The position numbers were made by a program, and so were the translations under genes. Below, piece after piece: positions 32,411-57,366 of a stretch of DNA of 64,000 nucleotides. Source of the stretch: Clostridiaceae bacterium (lineage in GTDB: Bacteria > Bacillota > Clostridia > Peptostreptococcales > T1SED10-28); NCBI GenBank assembly GCA_003554105.1, contig PWFQ01000014.1, positions 1-64,000 of the forward strand, read 5' to 3'. The notes below the pieces were generated by a model. It was not told where the DNA came from and searched no databases. It was given only the letters and a program-made list of their open reading frames with translations. Positions within the stretch are counted from its first letter, which is position 1. Each line of letters opens with the position of its first letter.

Positions 32411-32435
32411 TTTTATTCTAATAGAAATAAATATC

Positions 32436-32705
32436 GGCTGTGAGAGGAAGAGTAAATATCCATCGAACTTTACAGAGAGTCGGGGTGCTGAGAATCCGAC
32501 AGGGAGAGGGTATTGAAAAACATCCTTGAGCTTCTAACCAAAATGGTTCATCCAGAGTAGGCTTAGACGGAACCCAACCGTTATCTCAGGGGATCTATCG
32601 ATCATGCTGAAGTGATCCGTAGAGACTTAAGTGGGCTTTCCAAGGAAAGTCAATAAAGGTGGTACCGCGATAACATACCCTTTCGTCCTTTAAAATTCGT
32701 TTTAT
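32436..32705 (+). promoter_or_regulatory. T-box leader upstream of asnA (probable Asn specifier AAC)
   Basis: AGAGAGTCGG.GGTGCTGAGAATCCGAC, GAGCTTCTAACC specifier region, AAAGGTGGTACCGCG T-box, TTTCGTCCTTT. Confidence 0.92.
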
Positions 32706-41914: not shown

Positions 41915-42013
41915 TGGAGCAGCGGAAGCGATATTACAACGCGATGTCAAGATCTTCGTTTAGAAGCAACCTCCCATCTTCTAACACTTAACGCATAATA
42001 TCTACTCTGCTCA
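41915..42013 (-). promoter_or_regulatory. Tetrahydrofolate (THF-I) riboswitch
   Basis: Minus strand GAGCAGAGTAGATATTATGCGTTAAGTGTTAGAAGATGGGAGGTTGCTTCTAAACGAAGATCTTGACATCGCGTTGTAATATCGCTTCCGCTGCTC; conserved AGAGTAG, GCGTTAAGTG, GATGGGA, ACGAA and CCGCTGCTC blocks. Confidence 0.93.
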
Positions 42014-45624: not shown

Positions 45625-45924
45625 ATGATTAAAATAGACAATGAATTTGACGAAGTTCATGGAATCATTCGATCGAGATGGATTCCCGAAATATTGGAAT
45701 CCATTAGTAGAGGAAATCATTATTATGGGGAGATTCAAGCATCTATTGAATACATTAGTCAAACCGAGCTCAATAGAAAACTAAATCTGCTTGTCGGCAA
45801 AGGTGCCTTGGATAAAAAAGAAGAAGCAAATCGAACTCGCTACGAGATGAAGGAATTAGGAGAAGATCTTCATCATATTTTCGGACACTTGTTCGAGGTT
45901 AGAGATAAGTATTTTAAAGGGTAG
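45625..45924 (+). CDS. HxlR-like winged helix-turn-helix regulator
   Basis: RSRWIPEILESISRGNHYYGEIQASIEYISQTELNRKLNLLVGKGALDKKEEANRTRYEMKELGEDL. Confidence 0.82.
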   Translation: MIKIDNEFDEVHGIIRSRWIPEILESISRGNHYYGEIQASIEYISQTELNRKLNLLVGKGALDKKEEANRTRYEMKELGEDLHHIFGHLFEVRDKYFKG

Positions 45925-45939
45925 CCGTCGGCTACCCTT

Positions 45940-47733
45940 TTATGATGATGTTAAGAATTGGAACTGTGCGGCAAACAGCTTATAATACATAGAGCGGTTC
46001 TTCAAAAGCTCATCATGGGATCCGGTCTCGAGAATCTTACCATCGTGAATGACCATAATCCGATCAGCTTTTTTTATCGTGGAAAGCCTGTGGGCAATAA
46101 CAAAGGATGTTCGATCCTTCAACAGCTTTTCGATTCCTTCCTGCACAAGAAGCTCTGTTTCGGTATCAATACTGGAGGTTGCCTCGTCAAGTATCAGAAT
46201 CCGAGGATCATTGAGAACTGCCCTGGAAAGCGCCAGCAATTGTCTCTGTCCAATGGATAGCTTAGAGCCTCTTTCATTAATCTCGGTATCATACCCCATT
46301 TCAAGAGTCATAATAAATGAATGGGCATTGACAACTTTTGCTGCATGGATGATTTCCTCATCACTTGCATCGGGTTTTCCGTATCGGATATTATCTTTTA
46401 CGGTTCCTGAAAAAAGAAAGGTGTCCTGCATCATAACGGCCATTTGGCTTCGAAGAGAATCCATGGTTGCCTTGCTGATATCATGGCCGTCAATGGTGAT
46501 TTTACCCTCCTGAAGATCATAAAAACGACTTAGAAGGTTAATAATAGTGGTCTTGCCTGCACCGGTATGTCCGACTAAAGCAATTGTTTCACCTTGTTTC
46601 ACATCGAAGGAAACACCATCCAAGACTCTTTCCTCCCTGTCATAGGAAAAGCTTACATTCTGAAATGATACCTGCCCCTGGATCGGCGGGAGCATTTTCG
46701 CATTATGTTCATCAACAATACCCGGAGGTGTATCGAGAATTTCGAAGATCCGTTCAGCACTTGTCATATTACTTACAGTGATATTATAGAAGTTCGTTAA
46801 GTTCATTACCGGTCTCCAAAACATTGTGATATAGCCCATAAAAGCGACGAGGACTCCGATGGATATTTCTCCTCTTTCAATAAGCCGAACTCCCGCCCAA
46901 AATACAACGGCAGTACCCAATCCCCAAGACAAAACGACCATTGACCAAAAACCATTGGCATAGCGGATGGCACTTGTGAAAGCATGATTGAGCTGTCTTC
47001 CCAGGTCAAAGAATGTATGGCTCGTTTCGGTTTCTTTTGCAAAGCTTTGCACTACACGGATCCCTGAATAGTCTTCATGGATATAGGCATTCAGGTTTGA
47101 ATTTTTTTTGCGGAAAACCTGCCATTTTTTACTGAAGGTTCTTTCGATAAAAGCAAGACCTCCCATAAGAAGGGGAAGCATAACAAATGCAGCCAGAGCC
47201 AATTGGTAGTTCATCCAAAACATGATTCCTGAAATCGCCAAGAGAGTAATGATGTCCGGAATCACAACAGTAACACTATCAGTAAAAAAATTGGTCAAAG
47301 CATTGACATCAGTTGTAATCCTCGCAAGGATCTTTCCAACCGGACGGCTATCAAAAAAGGAAAAGGAAAGTTTTTGAATATGATTAAAAAGGGCTTCCCG
47401 AATTTCCATGAGGATTTTATTTGAGGTCACACCCATAAGATTGATTCTTTTTTTTGATGCAATCATTGAAAGACTGTTTACAACGATCATGATCCCTCCA
47501 AGAGAAATAAGCCCCCGGGTATTGTTTTCGCTGATATACTCATCAATTCCGATTTTTATAAAATAGGGATTGATGATATTAACGGTGACCGCAATAAGCA
47601 TAAGAAGCATTGCAAAAAGAACATTTTTTTTATAATTTTTGAGATAGCTGAGGAGACGAAAGAGAACATTCAGATTAATGGAATGATCAATTTTCTCGTC
47701 TTCCCGAAATGTATTAATCGCCATAAGCTTCAC
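45940..47733 (-). CDS. Heterodimeric-type ABC exporter subunit, TMD-NBD (catalytic Walker B)
   Basis: VGHTGAGKTTI Walker A; Walker B ILILDEATSSID with catalytic Glu; degenerate signature LSIGQ. Confidence 0.96.
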   Translation of the reverse strand: MKLMAINTFREDEKIDHSINLNVLFRLLSYLKNYKKNVLFAMLLMLIAVTVNIINPYFIKIGIDEYISENNTRGLISLGGIMIVVNSLSMIASKKRINLMGVTSNKILMEIREALFNHIQKLSFSFFDSRPVGKILARITTDVNALTNFFTDSVTVVIPDIITLLAISGIMFWMNYQLALAAFVMLPLLMGGLAFIERTFSKKWQVFRKKNSNLNAYIHEDYSGIRVVQSFAKETETSHTFFDLGRQLNHAFTSAIRYANGFWSMVVLSWGLGTAVVFWAGVRLIERGEISIGVLVAFMGYITMFWRPVMNLTNFYNITVSNMTSAERIFEILDTPPGIVDEHNAKMLPPIQGQVSFQNVSFSYDREERVLDGVSFDVKQGETIALVGHTGAGKTTIINLLSRFYDLQEGKITIDGHDISKATMDSLRSQMAVMMQDTFLFSGTVKDNIRYGKPDASDEEIIHAAKVVNAHSFIMTLEMGYDTEINERGSKLSIGQRQLLALSRAVLNDPRILILDEATSSIDTETELLVQEGIEKLLKDRTSFVIAHRLSTIKKADRIMVIHDGKILETGSHDELLKNRSMYYKLFAAQFQFLTSS

Positions 47734-47887: not shown

Positions 47888-49621
47888 TTAGATCACCTCT
47901 TTTTTTGCTAACGCCACATCCCCCAATTGATTTTGGAATAATCGGTAATAGTATCCTTTACGATTCATTAACTGATGATGATTTCCCCGCTCTGAAATTT
48001 TGCCATCCTGCAAGATAATAATTTCATCAGCATCCTTTACTGCTGAAATTCGATGGGCAACGATTATTTTCGTGATCGCTGTTCGTTGCTTCAGTGCTCT
48101 TTGAATCGAGAATTCAGTTTCCATATCAAGGGCGGAAGTGGCATCGTCGAAGATTAGTATCGGGCATTTTTTCAACAAAGCTCGGGCAATTGATACCCGC
48201 TGTTTCTGGCCACCGGAAAGCCCGACTCCCCGCTCTCCGATAACAGTATTAAGGCCGTCGGGTAATTCATGAACAAAGTCATCGACTTTGGAATCTTTAA
48301 TAACCTGGCGGACTTCCTCTTCACTTACATGATCTCTTCCAAACGTCAGATTTGCATAAAGAGTATCTGAAAAGAGGAACGTATCCTGCATAACGACGGA
48401 AATATTTTCCCGAAGAGAACGCAGATCTTGTTTCCGTACATCGATTCCATCGACCAATAGAATTCCATGATCAATATCATAATATCTTGGCACGAGGTTT
48501 ACTAAAGAAGATTTTCCGGAACCGGTAGCACCCATTATTGCAACGGTGCTTCCGGGTTTAATTTTTATGGATAAATCCTTCAGGATCTGCTCCTGATCAT
48601 AAGAGAACGCTACATTCCTGAATTCGACCGAACCTTGACGGGTGTCAGGTTCTATGGGCAGATCGGGGCTTTTTATTGAAGGTTCCTGATCCATTATGCC
48701 AAAGATTTTCTTCAAGGAAGCATTGCATCGGGAAAGACTGTTTGTCAGCCACCCCAAAAACCGCATCGGCCAAACGAGCATCGCAACATATCCATTGAAA
48801 GCCACAAGTTCTCCGATGCTCATCTGTTGACGGATGACTAGAAATCCTCCGACTAAAATCACAAGAATTGTTGAAGAGTAGGAAAGAAACTCGATTTTTG
48901 GCTGAAAATTTCCAAGAATCCGGCTTCGATTCACGTTTAACTCAAAGAGTTTGTGATTTTCCTTTCGAAATTTCTTCTTCTCTAAAGACTCCCGGTTGAG
49001 TGATTTAACAAGCCTGACCCCTGCAATATTTTCCTGGGCTTTTGTGTTTAAGATCGCATCCTGATCGCTGATTTCCTCGTAGGCTTTTCCCATTGTGCGA
49101 TCCATTTTCACCGCGAGGTATGCCAGCAGCGGAAAGATGACTGTGCAGGCCAGTGCGAGCTGCCAATTGATCATATACATAAGCGATGTTGCTACAATCA
49201 CGTAGAATATCTGTTCAAGGAAAAATCCGGCAACAAAGCCGACCACTTCCCATACGTTATCCACATCACGGGTGGTTCTGGACATGATCTCACCAGTGTT
49301 TGTCTGGTCAAAATATTCAAAGGGCAGACTCTGGATGTGATCGAATAAATCTTTGCGAAGGTCCAGACCAACCTGTACCCCCGCATAATCAAACATAAAT
49401 TCGCGAATATATCCGAAGATTGCTCTCCCTAAGGTAATCCCTATCAGTAAAAGCAATAGTCCGTTTAAACGATGAAACTCCTGATTTATGATGACTTTAT
49501 CAATGATTACTCCTGTTATATAGGGATTAAGCATATCCAAGCCGATAAGGATAAACATGGCGAAGATTGGTGTAATAAACAGGAATTTGTATTTTTTTGT
49601 GTATTGAAGCAAGCGAAACAT
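47888..49621 (-). CDS. Heterodimeric-type ABC exporter subunit, TMD-NBD (degenerate Walker B)
   Basis: MGATGSGKSSL Walker A; Walker B ILIFDDATSALD with Asp at the catalytic Glu position; canonical signature LSGGQ. Confidence 0.96.
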   Translation of the reverse strand: MFRLLQYTKKYKFLFITPIFAMFILIGLDMLNPYITGVIIDKVIINQEFHRLNGLLLLLIGITLGRAIFGYIREFMFDYAGVQVGLDLRKDLFDHIQSLPFEYFDQTNTGEIMSRTTRDVDNVWEVVGFVAGFFLEQIFYVIVATSLMYMINWQLALACTVIFPLLAYLAVKMDRTMGKAYEEISDQDAILNTKAQENIAGVRLVKSLNRESLEKKKFRKENHKLFELNVNRSRILGNFQPKIEFLSYSSTILVILVGGFLVIRQQMSIGELVAFNGYVAMLVWPMRFLGWLTNSLSRCNASLKKIFGIMDQEPSIKSPDLPIEPDTRQGSVEFRNVAFSYDQEQILKDLSIKIKPGSTVAIMGATGSGKSSLVNLVPRYYDIDHGILLVDGIDVRKQDLRSLRENISVVMQDTFLFSDTLYANLTFGRDHVSEEEVRQVIKDSKVDDFVHELPDGLNTVIGERGVGLSGGQKQRVSIARALLKKCPILIFDDATSALDMETEFSIQRALKQRTAITKIIVAHRISAVKDADEIIILQDGKISERGNHHQLMNRKGYYYRLFQNQLGDVALAKKEVI

Positions 49622-49691
49622 CGCTACCCCTCCTTTGGTCTTTCAGTGTAAGATTTTATTGATGAAAGTGGTGCGGAATTTTCGATAAACG

Positions 49692-49717
49692 AAAAAAACC
49701 ACAGAGAGAATCTGTGG
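49692..49717 (-). terminator. Strong intrinsic terminator in the ABC leader
   Basis: Minus strand CCACAGA-TTCTC-TCTGTGG TTTTTTT. Confidence 0.85.
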
Positions 49718-49812
49718 CTCGTCGAAACGATTAAATTCTATTTACCTCTCCGCTAAAATATAAGACGTTGAAACCTGTCGATCGGTTTCATAGTTCTGCA
49801 TAGGAAAGGCGG

Positions 49813-49874
49813 GCATAGAAAAAGGCCACAGCCATCACAGCTATCGCCTAAAAAGCATAGAAAAAGGCCATAGC
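49813..49874. repeat. Direct repeat pair covering the terminator tails
   Basis: GCATAGAAAAAGGCCACAGC (49813-49832) and GCATAGAAAAAGGCCATAGC (49855-49874), 19/20 identical. Confidence 0.85.
49819..49848 (-). terminator. Terminator-like hairpin 2 in the ABC leader
   Basis: Minus strand GGCGATAGC-TGTGATG-GCTGTGGCC TTTTTC. Confidence 0.55.
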
Positions 49875-49889
49875 TACTCTGCCATGACC
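49861..49889 (-). terminator. Terminator-like hairpin 1 in the ABC leader
   Basis: Minus strand GGTCATGG-CAGAGTAG-CTATGGCC TTTTTC. Confidence 0.6.
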
Positions 49890-49948
49890 AGTTAGTTTTG
49901 TTTAAGGAAATCACCTGATCGAAGACCAAAATGAAAAACCGATTAAAC

Positions 49949-50047
49949 CTATCTGTATAAAATGGCAGAGGAAATGTGATGAGATTCAGTAAATTGACTT
50001 GTAAACATGCTTTGATCTTTGATTTGATTCATTCTTAACTTAATCAT
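49949..50047 (-). CDS. 32-aa leader peptide upstream of the ABC exporter
   Basis: TAAGGAGGAAAAACG-ATG; MIKLRMNQIKDQSMFTSQFTESHHISSAILYR; followed by terminator-like hairpins. Confidence 0.65.
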   Translation of the reverse strand: MIKLRMNQIKDQSMFTSQFTESHHISSAILYR

Positions 50048-50253
50048 CGTTTTTCCTCCTTAATCTATGTATTTTTGTGATTGGTTTTTTACCTATTTCA
50101 CATTTCATATCTTATACCCAGGTGAAATAAAAGTCAATAGATTTTTTTCAAAAAGTTATAATAATTATTTCATACACCCTCACAGTGAAACAACCCCGCC
50201 TTGCAGTTTCATTGCAAAAAGGGTAAGATACTCGAGAGCAGGTTAAGAAAGAG

Positions 50254-51591
50254 GTGGGAGAAGTGAACAAAAAATATATGAAAGCATTAATGATTATCGC
50301 TTTTCCTTTGATGGTTCAAAACATGCTTAGGGGACTTTTAGGATCTGCGGATAAACTTTTTATCGGGCAATTGGGTGAGTCGGCACTTGCCGGTGTTGGT
50401 GGTGCTAATCAACTTTTCAGTCTTTTTCTTACAATTTTCATGGCGGTCTCAGCTGGACTGACCGTTCTTCTTTCCCAGTATATAGGTGGTAAAAAGGAAG
50501 AGAAGTTTGAAAAAGTTATAGGGACTATGATGACCTGTGCAATTGTTGGAGGAATAGGAATTATTCTTGTTTTCCAGGGAGCTGGAATCCATTTTTTAAA
50601 AGCACTTAATATTTCGGGTTTGGCATTGGAATCGGCCCATGAATACTTGCATATTATCGCTTATTCCATTCTATTTATTTTGTTTTCCTCAATTTTTTCG
50701 GGGGTTTTTCTGGCATTTAAAAAAAACACCTATCCAATGATTGCCACATTCATATCAATGGGAATTAATCTTTTGTTAAATGGACTCTTCTTCCTCATTT
50801 TAAACTGGGGGATCATGGGCATTGCTTACGCCACTCTCATTGCCCGGGGAATAGAGTTCGGGATCCTTCTTCTTCTCGTGAAGAGTATTCTAAGAAAAAA
50901 AGGGATTTCTCTTTCCTTGGGCTTCGATCGCCATCTTTTCCTGGGACTGTTTCATATCAGTGTTCCAATGGTGTTGGATGGAGCAGCCTGGCAATTGGCG
51001 ATGACGTTTTATACCCGAATTGTATTTACCATAGGGGTACAGGAAGTCGCAGTTTATGAAATACTAAAGATTTTTCAAACTCTTACGATCACAGGGGTTG
51101 CTGCAATGGCTGCTGCAAATGTGGGAATCGTAGGGCAGGAACTGGGGAAAAGTGCATATCGTGTTGCCAAAGAAAAAGCGGAGTCCGGTGTATGGTCGGC
51201 ATTAATTATGGTGACACTTATGAATGGACTGATACTTGTTTTTTCCAGACCGGTTTTCGGTGTATTCAGCTTGGAACCGGAGACGGTAACGATGGGTATA
51301 TCAGCGATTCCATTGGTGATCACGATTATCTATGCACAAGTACTCAATGTCATGTTTCCCTATATCCTAAGGAGCGGTGGTGACACATGGGCGAACTTAT
51401 GGATCACAATTATCGGCTTTTGGGGTCTTCAGATTCCTCTTGCTTGGATTCTCGGAATCATGCTGAACTTAGGGATCATGGGAGTACTAGCCAGTATGCT
51501 GGTTGCTGAAAGCACAAAAGGACTGCTGTTTTATTTACGATACAAAAGAGGGTCATGGATGAAAAATCTGGCGGAAAATCAACGATATTAA
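50254..51591 (+). CDS. MATE family efflux transporter
   Basis: 445 aa; MKALMIIAFPLMVQNMLRGLLGSADKLFIGQLGESALAGVGGANQLF. Confidence 0.93.
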   Translation: MGEVNKKYMKALMIIAFPLMVQNMLRGLLGSADKLFIGQLGESALAGVGGANQLFSLFLTIFMAVSAGLTVLLSQYIGGKKEEKFEKVIGTMMTCAIVGGIGIILVFQGAGIHFLKALNISGLALESAHEYLHIIAYSILFILFSSIFSGVFLAFKKNTYPMIATFISMGINLLLNGLFFLILNWGIMGIAYATLIARGIEFGILLLLVKSILRKKGISLSLGFDRHLFLGLFHISVPMVLDGAAWQLAMTFYTRIVFTIGVQEVAVYEILKIFQTLTITGVAAMAAANVGIVGQELGKSAYRVAKEKAESGVWSALIMVTLMNGLILVFSRPVFGVFSLEPETVTMGISAIPLVITIIYAQVLNVMFPYILRSGGDTWANLWITIIGFWGLQIPLAWILGIMLNLGIMGVLASMLVAESTKGLLFYLRYKRGSWMKNLAENQRY

Positions 51592-57185: not shown

Positions 57186-57251
57186 AATAAGAATTTTTCT
57201 TGACAGAAGAAAATATTCAATGGTATAGTAAGTACACAAATGAATAATTGA

Positions 57252-57366
57252 TGATCTTCAGGGCAGGGTGTAATTCCCGACCGGCGGTAAAGTCCGCGAA
57301 CCTTAAGGGTTGATTTGGTGAAACTCCAAAACCGACAGTAAAGTCTGGATGGAAGAAGAGAACTGG
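57252..57366 (+). promoter_or_regulatory. FMN riboswitch (RFN element)
   Basis: ATCTTCAGGGCAGGGTGTAATTCCCGACCGGCGGTAAAGTCCGCGAAC..GGTTGATTTGGTGAAACTCCAAAACCGACAGTAAAGTCTGGATGGAAGAAGA. Confidence 0.98.

Follow-up and report, generated by a model that had tools for sequence, protein, structure and literature searches.

In Bacillus subtilis, a three-codon upstream open reading frame (uORF) controls vmlR by a proven anti-antiterminator/antiterminator/terminator mechanism (PMC9226507), and cplR of C. difficile has an MR[I/M] uORF together with elements directed against the Shine-Dalgarno sequence (anti-SD elements; PMC10201436). The lincomycin-inducible bmrBCD genes of B. subtilis carry a terminator within their leader ORF, and the same three-part logic has been proposed for them (PMC4191407). 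Two adjacent terminators are ascribed to erm(K) of B. licheniformis in work cited within PMC4335068. Attenuators ahead of ABC transporter operons, with predicted antiterminators, were also collected by Naville and Gautheret as ABC-leaders, and the five shown come from Gammaproteobacteria, lactobacilli, bacilli or other Firmicutes (PMC2965389).

Here we describe a leader on the minus strand of a 64,000-nucleotide stretch of contig PWFQ01000014.1 from a Clostridiaceae bacterium (hereafter the window). With a probability of roughly 0.78, we read it as a transcription attenuator that senses the ribosome and has one movable strand, on the basis of its presence, its conservation, the preference of its strands for their own partners and its predicted folding. 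Like bmrBCD, it sets a leader ORF and a putative conditional terminator ahead of a heterodimeric ABC exporter; however, bmrB has a single terminator inside its ORF, whereas the first terminator here (T1) starts 59 nt past the uORF stop codon and is followed by two more (T2 and T3). It resembles vmlR and cplR in its anti-antiterminator/antiterminator/terminator arrangement, in its anti-SD pairing and in the favouring of read-through by a stall at the earliest codons (here a prediction), and the uORF-sensed induction by antibiotics found in those systems is likewise proposed for it. In vmlR and cplR, however, a three-codon uORF and one terminator precede an ABC-F gene, whereas here the uORF has 32 codons, and two or three terminators stand before a membrane exporter; unlike them, the present leader uses the 3' end of the uORF as the switching strand and the uORF's own SD as the competing partner. 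On the account of erm(K) cited above, both leaders join a leader peptide to at least two intrinsic terminators, but the erm(K) peptide is one of macrolide-specific arrest, and the gene downstream is a methylase rather than an exporter. No ABC-leader is described as combining a uORF/SD switch with tandem terminators (PMC2965389), and we did not find this design described in the open-access literature searched. The logic of the leader is the one that has been proven for vmlR and put forward for bmrBCD, but the variant is new, more elaborate and outside the bmrB and vmlR/cplR architectures.

The exporter genes lie on the minus strand in the order half 1 (577 aa, 47888..49621) and half 2 (597 aa, 45940..47733), an order that is the same in relatives. 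Both encode half-transporters with ABC_membrane and ABC_tran domains, and TM287/288 and B. subtilis YheI/YheH are among their relatives of solved structure. Half 1 has a degenerate Walker B motif (ILIFDDATS) and a canonical LSGGQ, and half 2 has a canonical ILILDEATS and LSIGQ; judged by these motifs, such a pairing of a degenerate with a canonical half marks a heterodimeric exporter in which one site is degenerate. Other genes surround the operon. A MATE-family efflux transporter gene (50254-51591, plus strand) lies divergent to the leader, the two having an upstream region in common, and a piece of this gene is also found upstream in genome G001 (locus L005). An HxlR-type regulator gene (45625-45924, plus strand) converges on the 3' end of the operon, is kept near it in G001 (L015, 71% identity) and could be a second regulator. 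Elsewhere in the window, a T-box leader (32431-32693, plus strand), a THF riboswitch (41918-42011, minus strand) and an FMN riboswitch (57250-57364, plus strand) reach gathering scores.

The leader region spans 49622-50140, and all of its features lie on the minus strand. A promoter-like scan places TTGACT-17-TAAGAT at 50109..50137, a site that is near-invariant when six genomes are aligned. Next comes a predicted 5'-terminal hairpin of the leader RNA (TGTGA..GGU/ACC..UCACA, 50076..50102), recognised from the sequence, predicted folds and conservation; kept in 6/6 leaders, it may be an RNA stabiliser or a protein site. The SD region of the uORF (AAGGAGG, 50051..50061) holds segment 0 (GGAGGAAA, 50052-50059), and the 32-codon uORF (MIKLRMNQIKDQSMFTSQFTESHHISSAILYR, 49949..50047) has counterparts of 39-45 codons in five genomes. 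The uORF 3' end is segment 1 (UUUCCUCUGCCAU, 49962..49974), which includes the antiterminator strand CUCUGCCAU (49962-49970). Downstream lie a GTTTAA/TTAAAC complementarity (49943-49948 and 49900-49905), T1 (49866..49889, TTTTTC tail) with segments 2 (AUGGCAGAG, 49877-49885) and 3 (AGCUAUGGCC, 49866-49875), T2 (49824..49848, TTTTTC tail) with segments 4 (GGCGAUAGCU, 49839-49848) and 5 (CUGUGGCC, 49824-49831), a hairpin TGAAACC/GGTTTCA (49769-49790), and T3 (49699..49718, T7 tail) with segments 6 (GCCACAG, 49712-49718) and 7 (UCUGUGG, 49699-49705). The SD of the first half-transporter gene comes after T3, and the intrinsic terminators stand between the uORF and the first structural gene. A strict terminator pattern gives two matches on the minus strand against 0.6 expected (1.1 kb). 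An earlier note on this DNA had listed the uORF with its strong ribosome-binding site, the GTTTAA/TTAAAC complementarity, the 49769-49790 hairpin and the three terminators, and all of these are present.

These segments can pair in two registers, one that we call OFF (0:1, 2:3, 4:5 and 6:7) and one that we call ON (1:2, 3:4 and 5:6). The idea of a register shift among segments 1-7 was fixed from the sequence before any folding, and the 0:1 pairing with the SD was added after the homologs. The strand CUCUGCCAU is perfectly complementary to AUGGCAGAG, which makes up the top of the T1 5' arm and the loop, and the uORF end, as UUUCCUCU, is also complementary to the uORF SD. Further down, the T1 3' arm is complementary to the T2 5' arm, and the T2 3' arm (CUGUGGC) to the T3 5' arm (GCCACAG). 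The T1 loop AGAG, which has no role in the T1 stem, is invariant and complementary to an equally invariant CUCU in the uORF. Among 52 other terminator-like hairpins, taken as controls from the window and the homolog loci, none equals the 1:2 pairing (-16.9 kcal/mol) or the 3:4 pairing (-15.3 kcal/mol) of the window, but the 5:6 pairing is equalled or beaten by 5 of these unrelated terminators, so the part of T3 in the switch is the weakest claim. In the folding model, the uORF 3' end is the antiterminator strand and, when paired with the SD, the anti-antiterminator. Ribosome-mediated attenuation of a heterodimeric ABC exporter, as the earlier note had it, is well supported, although that note did not recognise the uORF 3' end as the antiterminator.

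We propose that the leader would be off in two situations: when the uORF is translated through and the ribosome covers or melts its 3' end, and when the uORF is not engaged and its 3' end pairs with its own SD. In both, T1, T2 and T3 would form and transcription would halt before the exporter. It would be turned on by a ribosome stalled at the uORF start codon, or immediately past it, and occupying the SD, in which case the uORF 3' end would pair with the T1 5' arm and loop (1:2), the freed T1 3' arm would take the T2 5' arm (3:4) and the freed T2 3' arm could, in turn, take the T3 5' arm (5:6). Because these pairings are chained, one register shift would disarm all three terminators. With the terminators lost, RNA polymerase would, we infer, enter the heterodimeric exporter genes in vivo, and the signal would presumably be drugs that freeze early elongation.

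Partition-function folding gives probabilities for T1, T2 and T3 of 0.98, 0.97 and 0.85 with no ribosome and of 1.0, 0.98 and 0.85 with a ribosome at the uORF stop, but of 0.07, 0.11 and 0.34 with a ribosome footprint on the uORF start codon. The minimum-energy fold contains the pairing of the SD with the uORF end and all three terminators when no ribosome is present, and 1:2, 3:4 and 5:6 all together when one sits on the start. The effect on T1 is robust to footprint size, temperature and choice of start site, and 0 of 200 shuffled leaders reproduce it. Computationally, the antiterminator and the terminators are mutually exclusive and ribosome position governs the choice. In the equilibrium model T1 is off only with stalls at codons 1-3, and partly at codons 4-6; stalls from codon 7 on leave T1 formed because the SD is free again. 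What the model predicts is thus a switch that responds to a ribosome "initiated but not elongating". A trp-type attenuator, in which amino-acid starvation stalls the ribosome at hungry codons within the uORF, shares the mutually exclusive hairpin logic, but it would act by a mid-uORF stall where a first-codon stall is predicted to be required, its downstream gene would hardly be an exporter, and no run of a single residue occurs in the uORF of the window or of other families; we regard it as extremely improbable.

A DNA search of 98 related genomes recovers the leader in five genomes of the sister genus, one of which is SLKF01000188.1, the 'Clostridiales bacterium' MAG CSSed165cm_262; it is present in 6/6 genomes of the family (two genera, the window's genome included). 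A scan of genome contigs returns a single close relative. In each of the five other genomes an orthologous exporter pair lies downstream (75-76% identity for half 1 and about 80% for half 2), and the six-genome alignment conserves the promoter, the 5' UTR, the uORF start, a CCTCTGC within the uORF end, and T1, T2 and T3. The uORF and the terminators are in this way kept across the family, in line with the earlier note. The interval between T2 and T3 shows no conservation in the same alignment, including the 49769-49790 hairpin that the note had offered as an alternative structure; we rejected that hairpin as the switch on this ground, and the switch does not need it. In predicted folds, three of the five sister-genus leaders act like the window's at T1 (probability 0.09-0.24 with a ribosome on the start); the exceptions are L016, in which T1 keeps a probability of 0.91 with a ribosome there, and L015, in which T1 is unformed without a ribosome. 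The sister-genus leaders (L012-L016) also carry, between T3 and the exporter start and directly before the exporter SD, an inverted repeat GGAACTC..GAGTTC that is missing in the window and may add translational control in that genus.

Conservation of the 5' hairpin (TGTGA/TCACA) would also fit a metabolite riboswitch, or an antiterminator protein that binds the RNA there. We consider such control highly improbable, as the switch is explained without this hairpin and neither the window leader nor any of 16 homolog loci reaches the gathering score of an Rfam family; the best weak match has an E value of about 0.5. That match, to ncr1575 (22.9 bits, E 0.4-0.5, against a gathering score of 60), was taken as chance.

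For exporter half 1, orthologs at about 44-55% identity were gathered from the order, the class and the order of genome G660. Many are preceded by a uORF whose SD is extended (AAGGAGGCAGGA, AGGAGGUAGGA, GCGAGGUAAAA) and whose end is complementary; tandem terminators follow in most cases. The uORFs of the other leaders inspected have 24-52 codons, and the SD and the putatively translated uORF are kept in the six family genomes and in most other leaders examined. One large group ends its uORF in GAUAACCCUGCCUUACUC (DNPALL), within which GAUAACCC pairs with GGGUUAUC in T1 and CCUGCCU with the SD. Across 17 representatives, strands pair better with their own partners than with swapped ones, both for 0:1 (-15.3 vs -12.3 kcal/mol; 1 of 20,000 permutations) and for 1:2 (-16.1 vs -11.2 kcal/mol; 0 of 20,000), and combined shuffle tests give a Fisher p of about 2e-13 for each. 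Paired strands change jointly, for example in GAGGCAGA:UCUGCCUC, AGGUAGGA:UCCUACCU and CGAGGUAAA:UUUACCUCG. Individually, the 1:2 shuffle test is not significant in L057, L058, L063, L069 and L070; L057 and L058 have a weak 1:2 pairing and L063 has none. An alignment of 11 leaders yields no covariation for 1:2, which is almost invariant there and hence uninformative; in the same leaders both strands of the 3:4 helix vary at 4 of its 9 pairs, none of 500 shuffles attains its covariation score, and T1 and T2 also covary. The 3:4 helix could partly be a by-product of terminator duplication.

In several other clostridial families, then, the leaders of exporter orthologs share this design while their sequences drift rapidly. 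The C. sartagoforme homolog (L018) has no such leader, and none is visible ahead of orthologs L071, L075 and L078. A search with T1 and T2 alone (model R1) across the order gave, as its best weak matches outside the family, ordinary terminators or unrelated leaders; these were inspected by eye, with minus-strand loci viewed unreversed. Model R2, run across the class, scores clearly solely for exporter leaders already known, and the primary sequence family is therefore narrow, although the design recurs. Separately, L041 (about 1319-1575; G200, another family of the order) has a possible uORF MNTLINKQARFSFYSQFI followed by tandem terminators, and its downstream gene resembles a lipoprotein-type ABC substrate-binding protein; it may be a separate tandem attenuator.

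In many of these other families, equilibrium folding favours T1 irrespective of the ribosome, and for them one has to suppose that 1:2 gains kinetically from being transcribed earlier. This folding, like the weak constraint on the peptide, is what one would expect of constitutive insulation, in which the terminators merely block a transcript arriving from upstream or running antisense, the uORF is due to chance, and the exporter has another promoter or lives on weak read-through. The promoter, SD, uORF and terminators are nonetheless conserved together, the T1 loop is complementary to the uORF end, strands prefer their own partners, and the promoter-like scan of the minus strand finds no site between T3 and the exporter. 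We think insulation distinctly improbable.

The uORF peptide itself is weakly constrained. In the sister genus its pN/pS is 0.74, in another group 0.83; its N-terminal codons differ between families, and L057 and L058 both keep the pairing nucleotides but read them in different frames. For these reasons we hypothesize, from sequence comparison, that the uORF probably senses a blocked start and not a specific nascent chain. A drug that stalls the ribosome at a nascent-chain motif, as in erm/mef leaders, could be suspected from a (D/N)NPALL-like C-terminal motif that recurs in several families and from the MIKLR common to both genera of this one; the recurrent motif, however, is the pairing strand, and neither the pN/pS values nor the frame shift fits a selected peptide, so we judge such an arrest peptide unlikely. 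The new leader family envisaged in the earlier note holds for the RNA pairing design, which is conserved, but not for the peptide, which is replaced by others elsewhere. By analogy with vmlR and cplR, early-acting peptidyl-transferase inhibitors are likely inducers of a leader that senses a blocked start.

Whether this amounts to an undescribed and widespread clostridial design is, in our estimate, an even bet. In such a design the uORF 3' end would be contested by the uORF SD and the first terminator, activation would require a ribosome that has initiated but is kept at the start codon without elongating, and one register shift would propagate through two or three tandem terminators. If true, antibiotic-responsive exporter operons in uncultured Clostridia could be sought by a compact rule, a uORF with a 3' end that pairs both with the uORF's own SD and with the first terminator, and their inducers would be predictable as inhibitors that hold ribosomes on the first codons. 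The chained shift would also show how one ribosome position can release serial terminators, allowing tight repression while induction is kept.
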